Shown in pieces: positions 1,969 through 21,566 of a stretch of DNA of 64,000 bases. Numbering within the stretch: position 1 is the first letter of the stretch; the number at the start of each line of letters is the position of its first letter. The notes beneath the pieces were generated by a model, which was not told the DNA's origin, did no database searches, and saw nothing but the letters and a program-made list of their open reading frames with translations. The stretch covers positions 582,001-646,000 of the forward strand of contig NZ_JAKKUT010000002.1 of assembly GCF_029582805.1 (NCBI RefSeq). The letters are read 5' to 3'. A program made the position numbers and the translations under genes. This DNA comes from Candidatus Synechococcus calcipolaris G9 (lineage in GTDB: Bacteria > Cyanobacteriota > Cyanobacteriia > Thermosynechococcales > Thermosynechococcaceae).

Positions 1969-2239
1969 TACACCAAGCCTTCTTGTGATAACGAGGTCGC
2001 TAGCTGCTTGGAACAGAACTCAAGAGGAAAGATAATCTTTATCCTTTAGCCTTCAGTATAGCTTGAAGCTTGCTGAACATAACCCAACCAGATCACCCGT
2101 CGCTACTGCCCTCACTGACAACCCTCTGGATGATTTTACAGCCGCAGACAATACTGAAACCATTGCCCCACCGACAATTTTCTAGGTGTTTTCCGACTTG
2201 CAGGCAACTTCAAGGAACGAGTGCAAGGACTTTCAGCGG

Positions 2240-2253
2240 AGCCAGCTAACAAA
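2240..2253. repeat. 14-bp inverted repeat, second boundary of the ParA-HEPN module
   Basis: AGCCAGCTAACAAA here is the exact reverse complement of TTTGTTAGCTGGCT at 134-147. The two copies enclose the ParA-HEPN operon. Read in the gene direction (minus strand), the module begins with GTTAGCTGGC, like the GTTRRRY start of an integron cassette, and ends with the complementary AGCTAAC box of the attC-like site. The repeat starts four bases beyond the mlaE stop. The rest of the gap 1969-2239 probably holds the parA promoter; a short open stretch there (near 2020-2185, plus strand) has no start and resembles no protein I know. Confidence 0.6.
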
Positions 2254-2256
2254 GTT

Positions 2257-3075
2257 TTAAAGAGATTGAACCCCAACAGTACTACTACCCCCAAACAAAA
2301 TCCAGGACAAAAAGAAGTTTGCGATAAAAATTGTCATTAGGGCCATAACCACCGCCGCAGTGGTTGATTGCCCCACCCCTTTAGCTCCCCCCCGTGTCGT
2401 CAAGCCCCAGCTACAACCAATAATGGCAACGATACCGCCAAAAATAACCGCTTTGATAATGGCACTCCAAATATCCCAGGGGCCAAGGAAGTTTTGAATG
2501 GATTCGAGAAAGAGGGTTCTGGGAATGTCATAGAAATAAAAGGCAATTAACATGCCGCCATAGAGGCCAGTAATCAGGGAAAGAATCATTAGCACCGGTA
2601 ACATCAGTCCACAGGCAATAAACCGTGGAACCACAAGGTAATCTATGGGATCTGTTCCCAGCATATGGAGGGCATCAATTTGTTCAGTGACTCGCATCGT
2701 GCCAATTTCAGCGGCAAAGGCAGAACCAACGCGGCCAGCCAAGACAACGGCGGTGAGGACAGGGCCCAATTCCCGTGTCAGGGCAATGGCAAGAACACCA
2801 CCGACAGCGGAAGATGCGCCAAAGCTAATAAATTCCCGTGCCACTTGAATTGTAAACACCATACCCACAAACATGGCCGTGAGGAGGGCGACCCAAACGG
2901 AACCGGGGCCAACAATTGCCATTTGTTCTATCGTGTTCCGAATATTGATGCGCCCTTGGCAAATATGGAGTGTGACCTGACCCGCCAGCAAAAAGGCAGA
3001 ACCCAGACGTTGCAGTCGTTGACTCTTGCCAAATTGAGCTAGGGAACGCTTGAAACTGACTTTGGGCAATAGCAT
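2257..3075 (-). CDS. mlaE: MlaE-family ABC transporter permease
   Basis: A 272-residue integral membrane protein of the MlaE/YrbE (DUF140) permease family, which forms the membrane core of ABC systems moving phospholipids or other lipids between membranes. Family signatures include RELGPVLTAVVLAGRVGSAF and a following AEIGTMRVTEQIDALHMLG, around residues 125-165. About five or six hydrophobic segments fill the rest. In cyanobacteria the ATPase and MCE-domain partners are often elsewhere, and none is adjacent here. It follows the DUF3172 gene by 17 bases on the same strand, so the two probably form an operon. Length is normal for the family. Confidence 0.92.
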   Translation of the reverse strand: MLLPKVSFKRSLAQFGKSQRLQRLGSAFLLAGQVTLHICQGRINIRNTIEQMAIVGPGSVWVALLTAMFVGMVFTIQVAREFISFGASSAVGGVLAIALTRELGPVLTAVVLAGRVGSAFAAEIGTMRVTEQIDALHMLGTDPIDYLVVPRFIACGLMLPVLMILSLITGLYGGMLIAFYFYDIPRTLFLESIQNFLGPWDIWSAIIKAVIFGGIVAIIGCSWGLTTRGGAKGVGQSTTAAVVMALMTIFIANFFLSWILFGGSSTVGVQSL

Positions 3076-3092
3076 TGGGGTGGGATCTACCG

Positions 3093-3647
3093 CTAAAAGT
3101 TATTGGTTTCTCTTGGACTGCCCCCTAACCCTGGTAGACCAAGGAAGAGATTTTTATCGGCATTACTTTGATATAAGCAGGTAATTTCCGGATTACCTTC
3201 TAAATTGCCAACGTAGCCAAAGGTATTGAGTCGCTGCTTACAGGTTCGCAGTTGCTCCGAGGTGATGAGTTTCCGCTGCTCTAGTAGGGGAATATTATTC
3301 ACCCGGATCACACAACCTGGCTGCATCACTGGCTGGGAGACAAATACGGAAAAGGGGTTAAAGGTTACGAAAATGCGGGTATCAACGGCGATCGCACTGG
3401 CTCCAAACTGAACACAGATTTCTGGATTGGGGGCACTTTGATCAATAAATTGGGTGGAGGCCACATTTTCTGGGGTAAAGCTGGTGGTCTTACTAAAAAG
3501 AACCCCCACACCAATACCGATGACAAAAACTCCTCCCAAGATAGCCAGGGTACGGGAGTTCAGCTTTGAGTCTGGTTGGGGAGGTCGCTGGGGCGTTCGG
3601 GGATTAGCAGACCGAGAAGAAGGGCGAGGTGTGGGGCGACGCGGCAT
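3093..3647 (-). CDS. DUF3172 membrane-anchored protein
   Basis: A 184-residue protein with a proline/arginine/serine-rich basic N-terminus (residues 1-30), one transmembrane helix (about 33-50, LAILGGVFVIGIGVGVLF), then a small globular domain containing four cysteines. It matches the cyanobacterial family DUF3172, whose function is unknown. The likely topology is a cytoplasmic basic tail with the domain on the far side of the membrane. It sits 17 bases upstream of mlaE on the same strand, which makes a shared role in lipid transport possible but unproven. Confidence 0.8.
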   Translation of the reverse strand: MPRRPTPRPSSRSANPRTPQRPPQPDSKLNSRTLAILGGVFVIGIGVGVLFSKTTSFTPENVASTQFIDQSAPNPEICVQFGASAIAVDTRIFVTFNPFSVFVSQPVMQPGCVIRVNNIPLLEQRKLITSEQLRTCKQRLNTFGYVGNLEGNPEITCLYQSNADKNLFLGLPGLGGSPRETNNF

Positions 3648-4209: not shown

Positions 4210-4491
4210 ATGATTAGTAAGGATGAAGTCTTACGGGTTGCCCACCTGGCCCGACTTGAACTGGAGAGTGCTGAAGTGGGTGCGCTCACAGATCAATTAA
4301 GTTCCATTCTGGACTACGTGAATCAATTGAGTGAATTAGACGTGAGTAGGGTTGCTCCCACCACCCGGGCCATTGAGGTGAGTAATGTCACCCGTAGTGA
4401 TACCCTCATCCCCTATGAAAACCGCGCAGGCCTGCTGGCGATCGCCCCGGATCGGGAAGATGAATTTTTCCGTGTGCCTAAAATCATGTAA
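4210..4491 (+). CDS. gatC: Asp-tRNA(Asn)/Glu-tRNA(Gln) amidotransferase subunit C
   Basis: A 93-residue GatC, the small clamp subunit of the GatCAB amidotransferase that converts misacylated Glu-tRNA(Gln) (and Asp-tRNA(Asn)) to the amidated form. Recognisable segments are VLRVAHLARLEL near the N-terminus, the middle VNQLSELDVSRVAPTTRA, and the C-terminal DEFFRVPKIM. Length is normal. gatA and gatB are not adjacent, as is common in cyanobacteria. The next gene starts 27 bases downstream on the same strand. Confidence 0.95.
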   Translation: MISKDEVLRVAHLARLELESAEVGALTDQLSSILDYVNQLSELDVSRVAPTTRAIEVSNVTRSDTLIPYENRAGLLAIAPDREDEFFRVPKIM

Positions 4492-4518
4492 AGATACCCT
4501 TAACTTAAACCGGAGCCT

Positions 4519-4986
4519 ATGGCAAAGCGTAAACGTCGTCCCCTAGAACTGGATCTATTTCCGTTCCTTTCCGTCCTAGCTTGCACCATTGGTACCCTCA
4601 TTCTCATGGTGGTGGTCATCAGTACCAGTAGTCTGAGTAAGGAGCAGCAAAGTGTCCAGATTCTGGCCCGGGAAACGGCCCAAAATGAGGGAAAAACACC
4701 CCGCTATGTGGAATGTCGGGAGAATGGGGTGGTGATCCATCCCCAGCAAACCCTTGTGCCCCTACGGGAGATGGAAAACACCTCCTCCCTTTTGGCGGTG
4801 TTCCTCAATGGTCTGCGGGGCCGTCAGTCCGAGTACATTATTATTGCGGTGCGCCCCGATGGCTTTGACTGTTTTGAGCAGTTGCGCTATCAGGCAGAAC
4901 AGGCGGGGATCCCCATTGGCTATGAACCCTTTAATGCCGACTGGCAACTCTGTATCCCCGAACCGGGCCGCAGTCGCTGTGATTGA
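4519..4986 (+). CDS. ExbD/ZorB-like single-span membrane protein, function unknown
   Basis: A 155-residue protein: basic start (MAKRKRRPLEL), one transmembrane helix (about residues 14-36, with LFPFLSVLACTIGTL), then a periplasmic-side domain. The arrangement resembles ExbD/TolR-like proteins, which work with MotA/TolQ-type proton channels, and the ending segment AVRPDGFDCFEQLR with GIPIGYEP recalls ExbD-like proteins of planctomycetes. No ExbB/TolQ/MotA partner is next to it. It follows gatC by 27 bases. The assignment is tentative; it may simply be a conserved cyanobacterial membrane protein. Confidence 0.6.
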   Translation: MAKRKRRPLELDLFPFLSVLACTIGTLILMVVVISTSSLSKEQQSVQILARETAQNEGKTPRYVECRENGVVIHPQQTLVPLREMENTSSLLAVFLNGLRGRQSEYIIIAVRPDGFDCFEQLRYQAEQAGIPIGYEPFNADWQLCIPEPGRSRCD

Positions 4987-5034
4987 GAAAAAACCGTAAG
5001 CATTTCTCACCCTTGATCCAAGGGCATGGATCCT

Positions 5035-5586
5035 TCACATTTTCTGCAGCAAGAGTAACGTCGTGCTTCCGTAGCTTTTTTGGCGGCAGTGGAAATGATA
5101 ACGATCGGTCATGGCTTCCATGGTCGGCACTTGGCCCGTGCGGCATTCAACGGCCATTTCTCCCCCTGGGGCCAAAAAATTTCCCTGAAAAATTTCCGTG
5201 ATCACCGGCTGGTAGAGATCACTGTCGTAGGGGGGATCAAAATAAATAAAATCCACGGTTTTTTCGTCTAAGCGCGATAAGCTGTGACGTACATCCCCGC
5301 GAATAATTTGAATCTCTTGTTCGGGGCCGCACAAACCTTGCCAATTGGCACGAATCACTTGACAAGCCCGGGGAGATTGGTCGATCGCCATCACGATTTT
5401 TGCACCTCGACACAGGGCTTCGGCTCCCATTGCCCCACTGCCACTACAGATATCTAACCACCGACAGCCTTCAATGCGGCCCTGCCAAATATTAAAAATG
5501 GCTTCCCTGACACGGGCCGGCGTTGGCCGCGTGGCTAATCCTGGCAAGGTTTTTAGGGCACGTTGGCCGTGAATGCGTAATGCCAT
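5035..5586 (-). CDS. rsmD: 16S rRNA (guanine(966)-N2)-methyltransferase RsmD
   Basis: A 183-residue Rossmann-fold methyltransferase of the RsmD family that methylates G966 of 16S rRNA. It shows the SAM-binding motif DICSGSGAMGAEAL, an N-terminal TRPTPARVREAIFNIW, and the catalytic DPPY. I chose the ATG at 5586 (MALRIHGQR), because longer in-frame extensions only re-read the neighbouring gene. This ATG overlaps the TAA stop of the LysM/LytM gene by one base (TAATG), so the two genes are probably translationally coupled. Confidence 0.9.
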   Translation of the reverse strand: MALRIHGQRALKTLPGLATRPTPARVREAIFNIWQGRIEGCRWLDICSGSGAMGAEALCRGAKIVMAIDQSPRACQVIRANWQGLCGPEQEIQIIRGDVRHSLSRLDEKTVDFIYFDPPYDSDLYQPVITEIFQGNFLAPGGEMAVECRTGQVPTMEAMTDRYHFHCRQKSYGSTTLLLLQKM

Positions 5587-6443
5587 TAGGGACGACCTTG
5601 ACTCGGTGGGGCCCCAAGTAGGGAAAGGTAGGGGAGGGGATCCCGGGCCACCCAACCCTGGGGGGAGTTTTGCCGCAGTTCAAAATAGAGGCCCTGTTCT
5701 CCGGTTTGCCCTAGGGACGTTCCCGCTTGCACCGATTGGCCGACCCGCACCCGAATATTCTGCACCGAACTATACCGCGTTTGCCATCCCTGGGCATGGT
5801 TGATCACAATCAGGGAACCATAACCGGGGCGATCGCCGACAAAGGCAACGGTTCCTGCGGCTACAGCATAAATGGAGGCTGGGGTCGAGATTTGAAAGCG
5901 CACACCCGTGGGCATTGCACTGGTTTGTCCATCGGGGCGATCGGGGATGGTGGGGGCGATCGCTCCTAGGGGATAGCGTTGTAGGGGTGTTGTCACTAAT
6001 TCGGCAATGGGTTGGTTTTGCCGGACTGCTCCCTGCTCTGACCAGCGAACCCCAGGAATAAAAAGGGTTGGGGAATTGGCCTGACAGCCATTGACTTCAA
6101 AGAGAACATCCGGGCGAATTCCGTACCGTTGGGCAATATCTGGCAGGGATTCCTGCCTAGAGCGTTGAATCAGCACCCCATCCATGGGCGGAATAACAAT
6201 TGTAGTTCCGACTGAAACGGTTCCCTGACGTAAAACGGGATTTAACCCCAGGAGAGTGACCGGCCGGAGGCCATGGGCCTGGGCAACAGTCTCCAGGCGA
6301 TCGCCACCGCGCCATTGATAGGCGGTTAATCGTTCCAAAATAGGCACAGGGCAGGCCACTGTACTTTGCCCTCCTAGGACGAGTCCTGTCCCAACCACCC
6401 CCAGGATGATAAATAGGCGAAGATATTGGTCACATCCGTGCAT
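5586..6443 (-). CDS. LysM-type and degenerate LytM (M23-like) envelope protein
   Basis: About 285 residues from the ATG at 6443, which gives a proper signal peptide (MHGCDQYLRLFIILGVVGTG...). Two LysM-like segments follow (GDRLETVAQAHGLRPVTLLGLNP and ESLPDIAQRYGIRPDVLFEVN), which would bind peptidoglycan. The C-terminal domain has the M23/LytM fold pattern (IYAVAAGTVAFVGDRPGYGS) but lacks the zinc ligands: the expected H-x3-D is absent, the usual YAHL reads YSSV, and HLHFE reads LYFEL. It is therefore probably not a peptidase but an EnvC/NlpD-like activator or a wall-binding protein. Its stop overlaps the rsmD start. Confidence 0.8.
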   Translation of the reverse strand: MHGCDQYLRLFIILGVVGTGLVLGGQSTVACPVPILERLTAYQWRGGDRLETVAQAHGLRPVTLLGLNPVLRQGTVSVGTTIVIPPMDGVLIQRSRQESLPDIAQRYGIRPDVLFEVNGCQANSPTLFIPGVRWSEQGAVRQNQPIAELVTTPLQRYPLGAIAPTIPDRPDGQTSAMPTGVRFQISTPASIYAVAAGTVAFVGDRPGYGSLIVINHAQGWQTRYSSVQNIRVRVGQSVQAGTSLGQTGEQGLYFELRQNSPQGWVARDPLPYLSLLGAPPSQGRP

Positions 6444-14271: not shown

Positions 14272-15378
14272 GTGATTCATGGTCATCATTTACGGGCCCA
14301 GGGGGAAGCTTGGTGTTCAACCCATCAGTTCCTTCAACCTGGAATCCTCTGTGTCTTGGGTTTCACGGCAACAGGACTCATTCCCGGCATTTCAGCGGCG
14401 GGCGCAACCCCCAGCGATCGCCAGTTTACCGCCCTAGCCGATGGCGAATTTTTATGCCATGGGCCGAGGGCCCATCCTCTCTATCCCTTACCGCCCCTAA
14501 CGGTGGGGGCATCTCCGGCATTGATTAGTCGTGCCGTGATTGCGGGCTTAGAATTACCCCTCTATGTTTTTGATGCCGGTTTACCCCGTCATTCTCTCCA
14601 GGGATTGATTGATTTAGGCGGGCAACCGGCCCAGTGCCTAACCAGTGGTCAAGCCCTTCCCCTCGATGGGGTTTGGCATCTCTGGCAACAGGGACTCAAG
14701 TGGGGAGAAACCCTGAGTGATCAACACCCTTGGCTTGTGATTGGGGAATGCGTGGTGGGTGGGACGACGACGGCCTTAGCTCTCTGTGAGGGCTTGGGTA
14801 TTTCCGGGCGCGATCGCATTGGCAGTAGCCACCGTCAGTGCAATCATCAGCAAAAGTGGCATATTGTCCAAAAAGGATTGGAGCAGGTTAGGGCTAAGAA
14901 TCCCGGCTATCTCCATCCCTTGGAGTGTGTGGCGGCCATTGGGGACCCGATGCAAGTGGTCATAGCTGGGATGGTTGTTGCCGCCAGTCAACGCTCAGGA
15001 GTTCTGTTAGCGGGCGGGAGTCAACTGTTGGTGGTGTATCAATTGGCCAAGGCGATCGCCCAGGTTGAGACCATTCCTTGGCAATCCGATGCTGTTGTTT
15101 TAGGCACGACGCGCTGGTTAGTAGCCGATACCACCGCCGCCATTCTCAGCCTAGCCCAGGAGATTGATCTACCCCTGATCACGACCCAACTAAACCTGAG
15201 TTCCTCAAAATTTGCAGCCCTACGGGCCTATGAAAAGGGATACGTTAAAGAAGGGGTGGGAGCCGGGGGATGCGCGATCGCTGCCTCTCTCTATGGTCAA
15301 TGGACTAACCCAACCCTCGTCGATCACATTGATCAAATTGCCAGCCAACAGCGGGCACAAACTAAGGTCAACGGCTAG
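14272..15378 (+). CDS. cobT: Nicotinate-nucleotide phosphoribosyltransferase, CobT-like (TIGR00303 type)
   Basis: A 368-residue member of the CobT-like family found in cyanobacteria and archaea, which makes the alpha-ribazole phosphate used for the lower ligand of cobalamin. Features: LPPLTVGASPALISRAV, VIGECVVGGTTTALALCEGLGI and GSSHRQCNHQQKW. The start is a GTG at 14272, 21 bases after mreD, so it may read through from that operon. It is shorter in similarity to classic CobT, and the activity is assigned by family. It belongs with cbiD and the B12-dependent nrdJ in this window. Confidence 0.8.
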   Translation: MIHGHHLRAQGEAWCSTHQFLQPGILCVLGFTATGLIPGISAAGATPSDRQFTALADGEFLCHGPRAHPLYPLPPLTVGASPALISRAVIAGLELPLYVFDAGLPRHSLQGLIDLGGQPAQCLTSGQALPLDGVWHLWQQGLKWGETLSDQHPWLVIGECVVGGTTTALALCEGLGISGRDRIGSSHRQCNHQQKWHIVQKGLEQVRAKNPGYLHPLECVAAIGDPMQVVIAGMVVAASQRSGVLLAGGSQLLVVYQLAKAIAQVETIPWQSDAVVLGTTRWLVADTTAAILSLAQEIDLPLITTQLNLSSSKFAALRAYEKGYVKEGVGAGGCAIAASLYGQWTNPTLVDHIDQIASQQRAQTKVNG

Positions 15379-16804: not shown

Positions 16805-19800
16805 ATGGTGCAAGAACTCTCCCCTTCTGTTCGGAGTGATTTTCCTGAGGCGGCATTGACTGCCCATCCTGTGTTTTATCGCACCTACAGCCGTCAAGAC
16901 GAAGAGGGACAGCGGGAAAGTTGGCAACAGGTGTGCGATCGCACCATTCGAGGTCTTGCCAAGCTGGGTAAGCTCACGCCCGCAGAAATCGCATTACTAG
17001 AGGAGATGCAGCAAAACCTAATTGCGTTGCCTTCGGGTCGCTGGCTTTGGGTCGGCGGAACGCCATGGGTTGAAAAACCCGAGAACTTTTCTGGAGCCTA
17101 TAACTGCACAAGCACAAATGTTATCGACTGGAAGGCCTTTGGGCTGATGATGGACTTAGCCATGCAGGGTTGTGGCACAGGAGCGGTTTTAGAACCGAAA
17201 TATATTGATCAACTGCCGGTTATTCGCAACCCCCTGGAAATTGAGATCATCGGTAACATTGGCCAGACCCCCCCAGAGGAACGGCAAGAGAGGACCACCG
17301 TCACGATTGAGGGCAACCATTGTCACATTAAGGTAGGAGATAGTCGCCCAGGCTGGGTGAGGTCTTACCAAACGGTATTAGAACTCTCCAGTGACGAGCA
17401 GTTTACGGGGCAAGTTCACGTCACCATTGATATGTCCGATATTCGGCCCACGGGGGAACGCTTAAAGGGCTTTGGTGGGGTTGCCAATCCTGTGAAATTA
17501 CCGGAGCTTTATCAACGCTGTGGGGACATTCTTAACCGGGCGATCGGTAGAAAATTAACTGCCGTGGAATGCTGCTTGCTCATTGATGAGGCGGCGGTGG
17601 TTGTAGTTGCCGGTAATGTACGTCGGTGTTTGCCGGAAGATGCCTTAGTTCATACCAGTAAGGGCTTAGTCCCCATCAAAGCGGTTCAAATTGGGGATTG
17701 GGTGCAAACACCCTTGGGTTTCCGGCCAGTAACGGATAAATTTGACCAAGGTTACCAGGATGTTTATGAAATTGAAACCAATGCCACAGTTGCGCGGGCA
17801 ACCTTAAATCATCGCATCGCCACGTTAGCTAATGCCCAAGGGGAAGTGATCTGGAAATCTGTTCAAGACCTACAAGCCAATGATCGACTGCTCCACAATA
17901 GGCAGGTATTGCCTGGAAGCATTACTCACTTACCCCCTGACTTTACCCATGAGCGTCCTGAAAATAGCCGGAATGCCAGTGAAATTACGATTCCCGAACT
18001 CACCCCGGACATAGCTTGGTTGCTCGGCTTGACCCATGGAGATGGCTACGTCAGTTTAGGGCGTAATAAATATAACAAACCTTTTGGAGCCATTTCCTGG
18101 GCGTACAACAGTCTGGAACCCCAACTAGCTGAACAGATCCATGGCAAGATTAACCGTGCTTTAGCTTTATTTGGTGTCCAGTCTCGCCAACATCTGATTG
18201 CAGGCGAAAACACATTCCGCTCACGGGTTACCTCAATTCGTCTGACGGAATATTTCTATCGCTACATTAAACAACCCAAGCAGCCACTCCGAGTTCCTGA
18301 TTTTATTTTGCAGGGAACAGTGGATGTCCGGTGTGCCTATTTAGCTGGGTTAATGGATAGTGATGGCTCTGCCCACGGGCGGCCGCCCTATCTGCTAACA
18401 ACGGTTTATCGTGACTTTGCCCGGGAAGTCGGCGTGTTGCTTTCAAGTCTGGGAATTGCGGCCCGCCTCAGTATCACAGAGCCTCAACTTGAAACGTGGC
18501 AGCCGAAATATAATCTGAAATTACCTGCCCTCAAGTCCCGTTACAACAGTTTGATTGCACCCCATTCCCTTAAGGGTGAAATTCGCCAAGGCTTAAAGGC
18601 TCATGGCTTTACCATTCCTGGGGTAATGATGCGGGAAACCTATACCTATAGCCAAATGCGGGATATGGGATTTGAAGGAAACCGGACAACAGATTCTAAT
18701 TACGAGCGATACATTGCCGAATCAGATATAACCTTAGATATTCCCATTACAGTCAAGGGATTGGGCAGTTATGACCATGTACAGACCTACGATATTGAAG
18801 TAGCTGAAGCCCATTGTTTTTATTGCGATGGCTATCTCACCCATAACAGTGCGGGGATGAGGCAGGGGGATAGTAATGATCAAGACTTTGCCCAGGCCAA
18901 GCAAAATCTATGGCGGCAAGATGAACAGGGGAACTGGTCTATTGATCCGGAACGGGATGCTCTGCGGATGGCCAACCATACCCGTGTTTTTCATCGCAAA
19001 CCGACCCTAGAAGAATGTATGGCAGCGGTGCGCACCCAATACTACTCGGGGGAAGGGGCAATTCAATGGGCCGGTGAAACCATCGCTCGGGCCAATGCGG
19101 ATATCTTGAGAACGCCAGAATTAAAGGGGCAGTTTATTCAGGCTTACGAAGCGGGACAGGGCGCAGATTTTCTTCAGCGACTGGTTCCGGAGATCACCCC
19201 CAAAGAACTGAATCATTGTCTCGGCCGCTATGGTCTGAATCCCTGTGGCGAAATCGTCTCTGCTGATTTTCATTGTAACTTATCGGAAATTCACCTGAAT
19301 CAAATTGATCCCGGCGATCGCACCCTCCAGGCCAAAGCATTCAAAGCGGGGGCCTTATCCGTTGCCTCCTTGCTCCATCATCAGTTTGTGGAAGACCGCT
19401 ATCGCTATAGCCGCCAAGTTGACCCGATTGTGGGTGTATCCTTCACGGGATTGTTTGATTTCTTTGTCCATGCCTTTGGTGTTGAGTGGCTGAAATGGTG
19501 GCAAACAGGGCGATCTGACACGCCCCAAGGTAAAGCCTTTAAGGAACAAGAAGCCGACTATCTGCGCTATTGGCGGGACATTGTCCATAAAGAAGTCTGG
19601 GATTACTGCGATCGCCACGGTCTGAAACGTCCCAACCGCTGTACAACCGTCCAACCCAGTGGCACCAAATCTCTGCTGACGGGAGCCTCCCCCGGTTGGC
19701 ATCCGCCCAAGGCTCAACGATTTATCCGCCGGATCACGTTCCGCAAAAACGATCCTGTGGCCCTAGCCTGCTATGACTACGGTTATGCCGTCATCCCTTC

Positions 19801-20299
19801 CCAATCCGATAAAGACGAAACTGGCAAACTTTTGGATGATCCCTTTGATCCCCGCTGTAGTGAATGGCTGGTGGAAATCCCGATAGCTGTGTCCTGGGCC
19901 GACCTGCCGGGAGCCAGTGAAATTGACATTAATCAGTTTTCTGCCTTAGCTCAGTTTGATTTTTATATGCAGGTGCAGCAACACTATACCACCCACAATA
20001 CTAGTGCCACAGTGGAGTTACGGGAGCAGGAAATTGAACCCCTTGCCCAGGCGATCTATGAAACAATCCAACAGGATCACGGCTATATTTCAGCGGCCCT
20101 CCTGGCCCGATTTGATGCCCTAGAAACCTTCCCCCGCCTCCCCTTTGAACCCATTAGTAAGGAACGGTATGACGCGGAGGTAAAGGCAGTACAGCAACGG
20201 AAGCGAGTGGTTGATTTCCATCAAGCCCTAGCACGATACACCCAACCTCTGACAGAGGCGGGGCCTGCTGGCTGTGATTCCGATAAATGCTTGCTTTAA
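16805..20299 (+). CDS. nrdJ: Adenosylcobalamin-dependent ribonucleoside-triphosphate reductase with intein
   Basis: A 1164-residue precursor of class II ribonucleotide reductase, close to the monomeric Lactobacillus leichmannii type. Exteins are residues 1-274 and 682-1164, about 757 in total, which is the normal size. Visible key residues: Cys101 (YNCTSTN), NPCGE with Cys814 and Glu816 (thiyl radical Cys and acid), Cys824, and the C-terminal redox pair Cys1157/Cys1162. It reduces NTPs to dNTPs using adenosylcobalamin and does not need oxygen. A 407-residue intein splits the conserved NVRR-SAGM. Its stop overlaps the end of the convergent ABC ATPase gene by four bases. Confidence 0.95.
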   Translation: MVQELSPSVRSDFPEAALTAHPVFYRTYSRQDEEGQRESWQQVCDRTIRGLAKLGKLTPAEIALLEEMQQNLIALPSGRWLWVGGTPWVEKPENFSGAYNCTSTNVIDWKAFGLMMDLAMQGCGTGAVLEPKYIDQLPVIRNPLEIEIIGNIGQTPPEERQERTTVTIEGNHCHIKVGDSRPGWVRSYQTVLELSSDEQFTGQVHVTIDMSDIRPTGERLKGFGGVANPVKLPELYQRCGDILNRAIGRKLTAVECCLLIDEAAVVVVAGNVRRCLPEDALVHTSKGLVPIKAVQIGDWVQTPLGFRPVTDKFDQGYQDVYEIETNATVARATLNHRIATLANAQGEVIWKSVQDLQANDRLLHNRQVLPGSITHLPPDFTHERPENSRNASEITIPELTPDIAWLLGLTHGDGYVSLGRNKYNKPFGAISWAYNSLEPQLAEQIHGKINRALALFGVQSRQHLIAGENTFRSRVTSIRLTEYFYRYIKQPKQPLRVPDFILQGTVDVRCAYLAGLMDSDGSAHGRPPYLLTTVYRDFAREVGVLLSSLGIAARLSITEPQLETWQPKYNLKLPALKSRYNSLIAPHSLKGEIRQGLKAHGFTIPGVMMRETYTYSQMRDMGFEGNRTTDSNYERYIAESDITLDIPITVKGLGSYDHVQTYDIEVAEAHCFYCDGYLTHNSAGMRQGDSNDQDFAQAKQNLWRQDEQGNWSIDPERDALRMANHTRVFHRKPTLEECMAAVRTQYYSGEGAIQWAGETIARANADILRTPELKGQFIQAYEAGQGADFLQRLVPEITPKELNHCLGRYGLNPCGEIVSADFHCNLSEIHLNQIDPGDRTLQAKAFKAGALSVASLLHHQFVEDRYRYSRQVDPIVGVSFTGLFDFFVHAFGVEWLKWWQTGRSDTPQGKAFKEQEADYLRYWRDIVHKEVWDYCDRHGLKRPNRCTTVQPSGTKSLLTGASPGWHPPKAQRFIRRITFRKNDPVALACYDYGYAVIPSQSDKDETGKLLDDPFDPRCSEWLVEIPIAVSWADLPGASEIDINQFSALAQFDFYMQVQQHYTTHNTSATVELREQEIEPLAQAIYETIQQDHGYISAALLARFDALETFPRLPFEPISKERYDAEVKAVQQRKRVVDFHQALARYTQPLTEAGPAGCDSDKCLL
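17627..18847 (+). other. Intein with LAGLIDADG homing endonuclease in nrdJ
   Basis: In-frame 407-residue insert starting at Cys (CLPEDALVHTS) directly after NVRR and ending HN before Ser. These are standard splicing residues: Cys1, block B ATLNHR, C-terminal His-Asn, and Ser+1. Two DOD endonuclease motifs, LLGLTHGDG (about intein residue 132) and LAGLMDSDG (about 239), carry the acidic residues, so the homing endonuclease looks intact. The insertion is at a highly conserved catalytic-core site, as is usual for RIR inteins. Confidence 0.93.
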
Positions 20300-20952
20300 T
20301 TATCCATAGGTATTAAACGACCATCCTGGAGTTGGAGCCAGCGATTACAGACCCGTTTGACGAGGGCAGTATCATGGCTGGCCAAGATATAGGAATGGCG
20401 GGACTCACCCAGAAATTGCTCTAGGCGATCGCAGCTATGGCGATCCAAAAAAGCGGTGGGTTCATCGTAAATAATAAGTTGGGGATCCATGGCTAAAACC
20501 CCGGCGATCTCCACCATGCGCTGTTCACCACCGGATAGGTGATGGGGCGGCCGCTCGGCCAGGTGCTCAGTTCCCGTTTGTTGGAGGGCCGCCGCCACCC
20601 GTTCCTGGAGGTTTCTGGATTGAAGACCAAGATTTTCAGGGCCAAAGGCCACATCCTCCCAAACCGTTGCCGAAAAGAGTTGATCCCCTGGATTTTGAAG
20701 CACAATGCCCAAACCCGCCTGAAATTGCCCTGGAATAACGGGTTGCCCCAACCATCGAATCAAGCCGGCATTTGGTTTCAAAATACCCGCACAGAGGAGA
20801 AATAGGGTTGTTTTACCCGAACCATTATCCCCCGTCAACCCCAGGCGATCGCCGGGCCACAGATCCAAACTGAGATCACGAAATAGGAACGATTGGCCAG
20901 GGTAGGCAAAGTCTAGATGGCAAATCTGAAGAATGGGACGAGCATCCACCAC
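20296..20952 (-). CDS. ABC transporter ATPase, CbiO/ECF-like
   Basis: About 218 residues from GTG at 20952. A longer frame exists, but its first 87 residues re-read the M23 gene in another frame. Motifs: Walker A TGDNGSGKTTL, Q-loop ILQNPGDQLF, signature LSGGEQRMVEIAGVLA, Walker B LIIYDEPTAFLD, and switch His ASHD. The QNP.DQLF Q-loop is typical of energy-coupling-factor and cobalt/nickel (CbiO) ATPases. The substrate is unknown; cobalt or a vitamin is plausible next to the B12-dependent nrdJ. It follows the M23 gene by 17 bases. Confidence 0.88.
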   Translation of the reverse strand: MVDARPILQICHLDFAYPGQSFLFRDLSLDLWPGDRLGLTGDNGSGKTTLFLLCAGILKPNAGLIRWLGQPVIPGQFQAGLGIVLQNPGDQLFSATVWEDVAFGPENLGLQSRNLQERVAAALQQTGTEHLAERPPHHLSGGEQRMVEIAGVLAMDPQLIIYDEPTAFLDRHSCDRLEQFLGESRHSYILASHDTALVKRVCNRWLQLQDGRLIPMDN

Positions 20953-20969
20953 GATGGTTGATTGCTTGT

Positions 20970-21566
20970 TTATTGTTGAGCCTGGGTTTGGGCACGGTGC
21001 ATCGCCCGCAAAACCACCGCCGGATTCACTAATTGTCCTTGATGGCGTAGGGTCCAATGGAGGTGTGGCCCCGTTGTTCGGCCCGTCATACCCACCCGAC
21101 CAATTCTCGCCCCCGTGGGAATGGTTTGCCCTTCCCAAATTTGCAGACCGCCACCGCGATCCACCATGGCCCGTCCCCGATTGGTTTGTTCCACCCGACC
21201 CTTCAGGTGACAATAGACATGCTCCCAGGAACCGGATTGAATCCGCACCAAGGTTCCACAGGCCGTATGGTCAGAGATTTCAATCACCCGACCAGCCCAC
21301 CAGTTACGGACATAACTTCCTTCTGGGGCCGCAAAGTCTAGGCCATTATGAAATTCAGTGGTCGGTTCCCCCGTAGGCGATCGCCGATACCCAAAGGGGG
21401 ATGTATACCCCTGGAAATTTTCAACGGGAAAGGAACCCGTTTGCCAACCTGCTAGCTGGGGAGAACTACGGGAATTTTCAAAGGAACGTCCCATCTGGGG
21501 GGACATCAGTCCCAGGCCTAGTCCTAAAATCAAAGCCACGCCAATGCTATAACGTCGCCAGTTCAT
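20970..21566 (-). CDS. M23 (LytM) family metallopeptidase, secreted
   Basis: A 198-residue protein with an N-terminal membrane anchor or signal peptide (RRYSIGVALILGLGLGLM). The LytM domain is intact: FHNGLDF gives the H-x3-D zinc ligands, HVYCHL the second His, and GPHLHW the third. It would cut peptidoglycan cross-bridges in the periplasm. This contrasts with the catalytically empty LytM protein at 5586-6443. It heads an apparent two-gene operon with the ABC ATPase. Confidence 0.9.
   Translation of the reverse strand: MNWRRYSIGVALILGLGLGLMSPQMGRSFENSRSSPQLAGWQTGSFPVENFQGYTSPFGYRRSPTGEPTTEFHNGLDFAAPEGSYVRNWWAGRVIEISDHTACGTLVRIQSGSWEHVYCHLKGRVEQTNRGRAMVDRGGGLQIWEGQTIPTGARIGRVGMTGRTTGPHLHWTLRHQGQLVNPAVVLRAMHRAQTQAQQ

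Follow-up and report, generated by a model that had tools for sequence, protein, structure and literature searches.

A complete and probably mobile class 1 intein in the B12-dependent ribonucleotide reductase of Candidatus Synechococcus calcipolaris G9

The gene for the B12-dependent ribonucleotide reductase (RNR) of Candidatus Synechococcus calcipolaris G9 is interrupted by an in-frame insert of 407 codons, and the question raised by this locus is whether the insert is an intein that splices itself out to leave an active enzyme and is able to home into empty copies of the gene. An earlier note on the 64,000-nucleotide stretch analysed here (the window) had placed an intein at 17627-18847 in a B12-dependent RNR and had described Cys1, the terminal His-Asn, Ser+1 and both LAGLIDADG (DOD) motifs as kept. 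The location is exact to the base, the reading frame is open, and all of these residues and motifs are present in the window copy; mutated splice residues, which the note had named as the finding that would speak against it, were looked for in the window sequence and none was found. The insert is probably a complete, mobile class 1 intein in a working nrdJ, one that splices to give active NrdJ and is capable of homing.

Anatomy and class of the NrdJ intein

The host protein is a monomeric adenosylcobalamin-dependent ribonucleoside-triphosphate reductase (RTPR/NrdJ) of class II (TIGR02505, E = 4.4e-221). In window coordinates, its gene is composed of the following parts.

16805-20299, forward strand: nrdJ precursor gene, interrupted by the intein; 1164 aa, 757 aa once spliced; TIGR02505 735.9 bits (cut-off 340)
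16805-17626, forward strand: N-extein, 274 aa, ending in ...AGNVRR; aligned with the RTPR structure 1l1l
17627-18847, forward strand: intein, 407 aa, precursor residues 275-681, without internal stop
17627-17629, forward strand: Cys1, the first nucleophile of the splicing reaction; all 37 of 37 same-site alleles have Cys here
17801-17812, forward strand: block B, TLNH (Thr59, His62); both residues in 37 of 37 alleles
18020-18049, forward strand: first LAGLIDADG (DOD) motif, LLGLTHGDGY; catalytic Asp139 at 18041-18043
18338-18367, forward strand: second LAGLIDADG (DOD) motif, YLAGLMDSDG; catalytic Asp246 at 18362-18364
18788-18847, forward strand: blocks F and G, YDIEVAEAHCFYCDGYLTHN, with Asp389, His396, Cys397, Cys400, His406 and Asn407
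18848-20299, forward strand: C-extein, 483 aa and stop; Ser+1 is codon AGT, 18848-18850

Cys1 stands directly after AGNVRR and the terminal LTHN runs into Ser+1 of SAGMRQ, and the alignment with the solved RTPR places the junction between residues 319 and 320 of the 1l1l chain. The G+C content of the intein is slightly below that of the exteins (47.4% vs 52.2% overall, 45.2% vs 52.8% at third positions). The window nrdJ carries this single insert only. In relatives (G014, G009, G022 and others) nrdJ is interrupted elsewhere, at query positions of about 357-416 and with frames of up to 1493 aa (G014), and these further interruptions mark the gene as a repeated target.

Among the Pfam models run on the precursor, LAGLIDADG_3 (E = 2e-11, 44.5 bits vs 22.5) and Hom_end (E = 1e-4, 22.8 bits vs 21.1) score above their cut-offs, and Intein_splicing (PF14890) scores below (E = 8.3e-5, 22.9 bits vs 35.8). 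When the organism's own genome was searched with PF14890 (E ≤ 1), the NrdJ intein was absent from the matches, which fell in six places in four other genes; intein counts by that model are therefore lower bounds. The four other intein-bearing genes (C2:63.8-65.1k, C2:965.2-966.5k, C2:38.0-39.1k and C2:419.6k) encode DnaB, with a LAGLIDADG endonuclease; GyrB, with a weak HNH match below cut-off (E = 1.9e-4); a PPDK_N protein resembling PEP synthase, whose C-terminal junction reads ...ACN|C; and an N-half of DnaE, apparently the usual split intein.

A profile of the 37 same-site alleles matched solved inteins directly, with gp41-1 (E = 4.8e-9), Spl DnaX (7.5e-9), Mtu RecA (2.1e-8) and PI-PfuI (1dq3, 2e-7) among 25 distinct chains at E ≤ 0.01. 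An AlphaFold model built from the same 37 sequences (mean pLDDT 82, pTM 0.84, with a weak stretch below 50 at construct residues 328-376) matches the HINT splicing fold of gp41-1 (Z 18.4), Mtu RecA (Z 18.1) and Npu DnaE (Z 17.1), and its residues 131-317 match the two-motif LAGLIDADG endonuclease I-DmoI (Z 15.8). Over both domains the best fold match is the TliVMA intein (7qsu, Z 28.0 over 325 residues; 7qss, Z 27.0), which differs in its host protein, VMA, and is 21% identical. PI-PfuI, the Pyrococcus furiosus RIR1 intein, is of the same full-length, two-domain LAGLIDADG type (Z 22.6 over 326 residues), though archaeal and 18% identical. The NrdJ-1 intein (8ubs) shares a class II RNR host and matches in its splicing domain (Z 18.2), but it is split, unlike the window intein, and lies at the NPC active-site position. 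The agreement of profiles and fold with known inteins is far beyond chance.

Cys1, the block B pair Thr59-x-x-His62, His406-Asn407, Ser+1 and the HINT fold place the intein in class 1, and its two endonuclease motifs (GDG and DSDG) each carry a catalytic acid. Class 3, defined by WCT residues and the lack of Cys1, was rejected since Cys1 is present and invariant; the block F cysteine sits elsewhere than the Asp389 position. By analogy with well-studied inteins, the splicing domain would excise itself after translation through an N-S shift at Cys1, formation of a branch on Ser+1, cyclisation of Asn407 aided by His406, and ligation of the exteins to the 757-aa active NrdJ. The nested endonuclease most likely recognises and cuts intein-free nrdJ around ...AAT-GTN-CGN|TCN/AGY-GCN..., and repair of the cut would copy in the intein together with a few flanking bases.

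Same-site alleles, transfer and the state of the endonuclease

Of 386 cyanobacterial genomes sampled, 36 contain relatives of the intein, and named records come from Nostoc, Desmonostoc, Fischerella, Kastovskya and Phormidium. Thirty of the 36 genomes had loci and were compared (G358, G375, G346, G119, G324 and G304 were left out), and a single-protein search of genome contigs gave 8 loci, its six peptide patterns reaching close relatives only. Dropped from the comparison were duplicates on the same contigs (L068 and L074, as L042 and L053), the organism's own gene (L025, L037), one of L029/L039, which represent a single gene, an occupied locus that begins at the junction (L035) and a locus without the junction (L031). 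At the exact codon site, 37 alleles are occupied and 25 other relatives have an empty site. The occupied alleles comprise lineage A (n = 28; 404-426 aa, ending in HN) and lineage B (n = 9; 394 aa, ending in SN and 35-37% identical to the window intein). Sharing its junction and 62-75% identity with the other 27 alleles of lineage A, the window intein belongs to lineage A of the NrdJ AGN(V/I)RR|S site (at least 60% identity, same codon). Cys1, Thr59, His62, Asp389, His396, Asn407 and Ser+1 are unchanged in 37/37 alleles, and the penultimate residue is His in 28 and Ser in the 9 of lineage B. Three lineage-A alleles of 422-426 aa (L057, L049, L051) have an extra 15-19 aa in frame in the endonuclease part, which look recent. 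A search of plasmid records for the intein returned no match, and 9 records of annotated phages matched, each at <60% identity and over 22-81% of the query.

The evidence for movement comes from the closest relatives. The inteins of L038, from the window's family, and L039, from another family, share 93% amino acid identity at a dS of 0.28, against 68% identity and a dS of 2.0 for their N-exteins. The intein tree groups L028, L038 and L039 together (support 99), with the window allele as the next to join (support 100). As a clade, L028+L038+L039 is rejected by the extein data (AU p = 0.0205, from a quick tree in which L028 is represented by 96 N-extein residues only); in the extein tree, L028 and L038 nest in their own genus among empty alleles. 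The intein is present in 2 of the 11 genomes of the L038 genus, the other 9 having an empty site. Between L038 and its empty sister L013, 14 of 180 bases around the junction differ, and 5 of the 14 lie within 7 bases of it (-1 to +6), among them a change of serine codon from TCN to AGY, a pattern best explained by a short co-conversion tract. The empty alleles of this genus read CGA|TCN in 8 of 9 cases and CGC|AGC in L030; as L030 is empty yet has AGC like the occupied alleles, the junction footprint is not universal. These sequence comparisons support homing among the closest relatives, in the form of a recent transfer of the intein between families. Intein-free alleles among relatives are also what a mobile intein predicts.

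For the window copy itself no recent transfer is visible. No sampled allele is more than 75% identical to its intein, and the closest extein row reaches 76% identity, similar degrees of divergence that suggest a transfer that is either old or unsampled. The earlier note had held that both splicing and homing could be active; the comparison adds support for homing in the nearest relatives, and for the window copy homing is plausible.

This leaves room for an alternative, considered unlikely though by a wide measure the strongest of those weighed, in which the intein splices but is dead for homing, with its motifs kept, no cutting, and simple inheritance because precise loss is rare. Vertical descent would give just such similar divergence of intein (75%) and extein (76%), and a catalytic Asp has been lost, with splice residues intact, in 5 of 37 alleles: L045, L050, L053 and L063 (Asn in the second motif) and L073 (Gln in the first). 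Decay of the endonuclease is thus common in the family, and the retention of splicing residues while the endonuclease occasionally decays is expected from the homing-cycle model. However, the window copy retains both catalytic Asp and an open frame, the transfer among its nearest relatives is clear, and the endonuclease region of the relatives is constrained. Among the listed pairs whose intein dS is < 1.5, dN/dS is 0.025-0.23 for the splicing parts and 0.045-0.41 for the endonuclease part (0.123 for the endonuclease region of L038-L039), values taken from pairs of relatives because the window copy's own synonymous sites are saturated. The endonuclease of the family thus appears to be under constraint, usually looser than that on the splicing parts. 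The reading as a complete, mobile intein is preferred on these grounds, and we infer that the window copy splices and cuts today.

Redox control and the need for splicing

The earlier note had further suggested that splicing is conditional and links dNTP supply to redox state, and this suggestion is not supported. In its specific form, a disulfide between Cys1 and Cys397 or Cys400 would block splicing under oxidising conditions and so tie dNTP supply to redox, an explanation that is very improbable here. Of the four cysteines in the intein (Cys1, Cys236, Cys397 and Cys400), Cys236 is found in just 4 of the 28 alleles of lineage A. Close to the C-terminal junction are Cys397, 10 residues ahead of Asn407 and conserved in 28/28 lineage-A alleles, and Cys400, 7 residues ahead of it and conserved in 37/37 cyanobacterial alleles, a pattern that would suit a switch. 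Against it, the whole HCFYCDGYL(T/M)HN segment is conserved, so that the cysteines are not specially so, and neither is universal: Cys397 is Glu in 9/9 lineage-B alleles, and several phage alleles, L077, L078 and L104 among them, have Ala in place of Cys400. Known N-extein cysteine traps (CPG or CxC type) are ruled out since residues -3 to -1 are Val-Arg-Arg, without Cys. A precedent exists in the mycobacterial DnaBi1 intein, in which, according to PMC6195587, H2O2 leads to a disulfide between the catalytic Cys118 and Cys48; that intein is of class 3 and has a different cysteine arrangement, and the authors point out that oxidative inhibition does not apply to every intein, even within class 1. 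No finding favours a Cys1 disulfide in the NrdJ intein, and redox control is unsupported. The case warns that a cysteine near an intein junction need not mean a redox switch.

The claim that the intein sits in an essential enzyme, and that splicing is needed, was borne out to the extent that NrdJ is the sole RNR recognised in the organism's own genome (G000; 3.30 Mb, 8 contigs, 99.97% complete). The models PF02867, PF00268 and PF13597 had zero matches in this 99.97% complete genome, while they match 11, 7 and 6 of 14 control genomes. PF02867 is blind to this NrdJ, and a second RTPR-type gene was therefore excluded by a protein search instead, in which spliced NrdJ had no match in the genome besides the two halves of its own gene. 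With no other RNR recognised, splicing is probably needed for growth, to make dNTPs, and living cells would themselves imply that the intein splices. A broken nrdJ or an assembly artefact, for which only the mere length of the insert could be cited, carries next to no weight given the single 1164-aa frame, the insertion at the same codon in 36 alleles of other genomes, and a mature NrdJ that shares 76-79% of its residues, along its whole length, with the eight best matches in the family.

Two B12-related genes lie close to this B12-dependent gene. A CobT-like gene (14272-15378, forward strand; TIGR00303 298.7 bits, cut-off 240) lies two genes upstream of nrdJ, and a CbiO/ECF-type ATPase gene (20296-20976, reverse strand; 159.5 bits, below the 211.8 cut-off) is convergent with nrdJ and overlaps its end by 4 bases.

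Phage alleles, precedents and meaning

The same nrdJ site is occupied in IMG/VR contigs, with full-length relatives at 63% (L075), 55-56% (L076), 44-45% (L077) and, in many cases, ~35% identity. Mini-inteins of 134-150 aa (L104, L106-L109, L121) also occur there, as do split inteins (L112-L120) in which the N-half stops after 94-95 aa. In L112 and L116 the C-half is in a later ORF; in L116 the halves lie at 2209-3303 and 4325-5680 with a 316-aa ORF in between. At the NPC site, apart from the AGN(V/I)RR|S site, L112 carries another intein N-half. Flanking phage genes encode DNA polymerase (L092), a ParB-like protein and SSB (L106), and dCTP deaminase (L076); next to L075 there was a single weak match, its function unknown, and next to L077 none.

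The 23 distinct full-length phage alleles have Asp (12), Asn (9), Lys (1) or Gly (1) as the first catalytic residue, compared with 36 Asp, 1 Gln and no Asn among the 37 cyanobacterial alleles. The second residue is Asp in 22/23 phage and 33/37 cyanobacterial alleles, and is kept in the phage contigs with Asn at the first position (L075, L076, L077, L092-L096 and L126). This count left out near-identical contigs (L082, L084, L086, L088, L090, L091, L101, L105, L123-L125, L127, L128, L130-L136, L138-L141, L144, L145, L150 and L165, the last represented by L146), partial alleles (L089, L099, L103, L137), L110/L111 and repeats, and L098 and L166, which have no standard N junction. The enrichment of Asn in phages (Fisher p = 3.7e-5) is a lead and not a result because the Fisher test ignores kinship and only 3 independent virus/host contrasts are available, which all, or almost all, point the same way (sign test p = 0.25). 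Asn may be ancestral at this site in both lineages, and the phage copies that carry it might be nickases or dead enzymes. A broader proposal, speculative and rather doubtful at present, is that the AGN(V/I)RR|S site is an arena of intein exchange between cyanobacteria and phages in which the cyanobacterial copies, the window copy included, are double-strand cutters and the phage copies strand-specific nickases or inactive cargo. If true, phage copies would propagate the intein and yet leave unbroken the chromosome of the host on which they depend.

An intein of the same enzyme and the same length, 407 aa, was reportedly described from Anabaena (Nostoc) sp. PCC 7120 by Gleason and Olszewski in 2002 (J Bacteriol 184:6544) and is said to self-splice in E. 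coli to an active B12-dependent RNR; it comes from another organism and may occupy the same site. Most lineage-A alleles of Nostoc genomes measure 407 aa, and they share the site of the window intein. Inteins in phage nrdJ and ocean metagenomes are described in PMC3653736, inteins and self-splicing elements of cyanobacterial RNR genes in PMC12702839, and a likely intein in Thermus virus NrdJm in PMC6459318. The literature covered on cyanobacterial RNR inteins, which takes in few subscription papers, contained no paper on this allele family.

The window intein belongs to a kind already known in many cyanobacteria and phages and is, in this sense, of low surprise; taken alone, it is one more mobile intein in a cyanobacterial RNR. 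Some value lies in its combination of features, as the intein is full-length with both active sites, interrupts what is apparently the host's only RNR, and has both empty relatives and a close relative with a recently transferred copy. Together these make splicing, homing and the cost to the host testable in one system.
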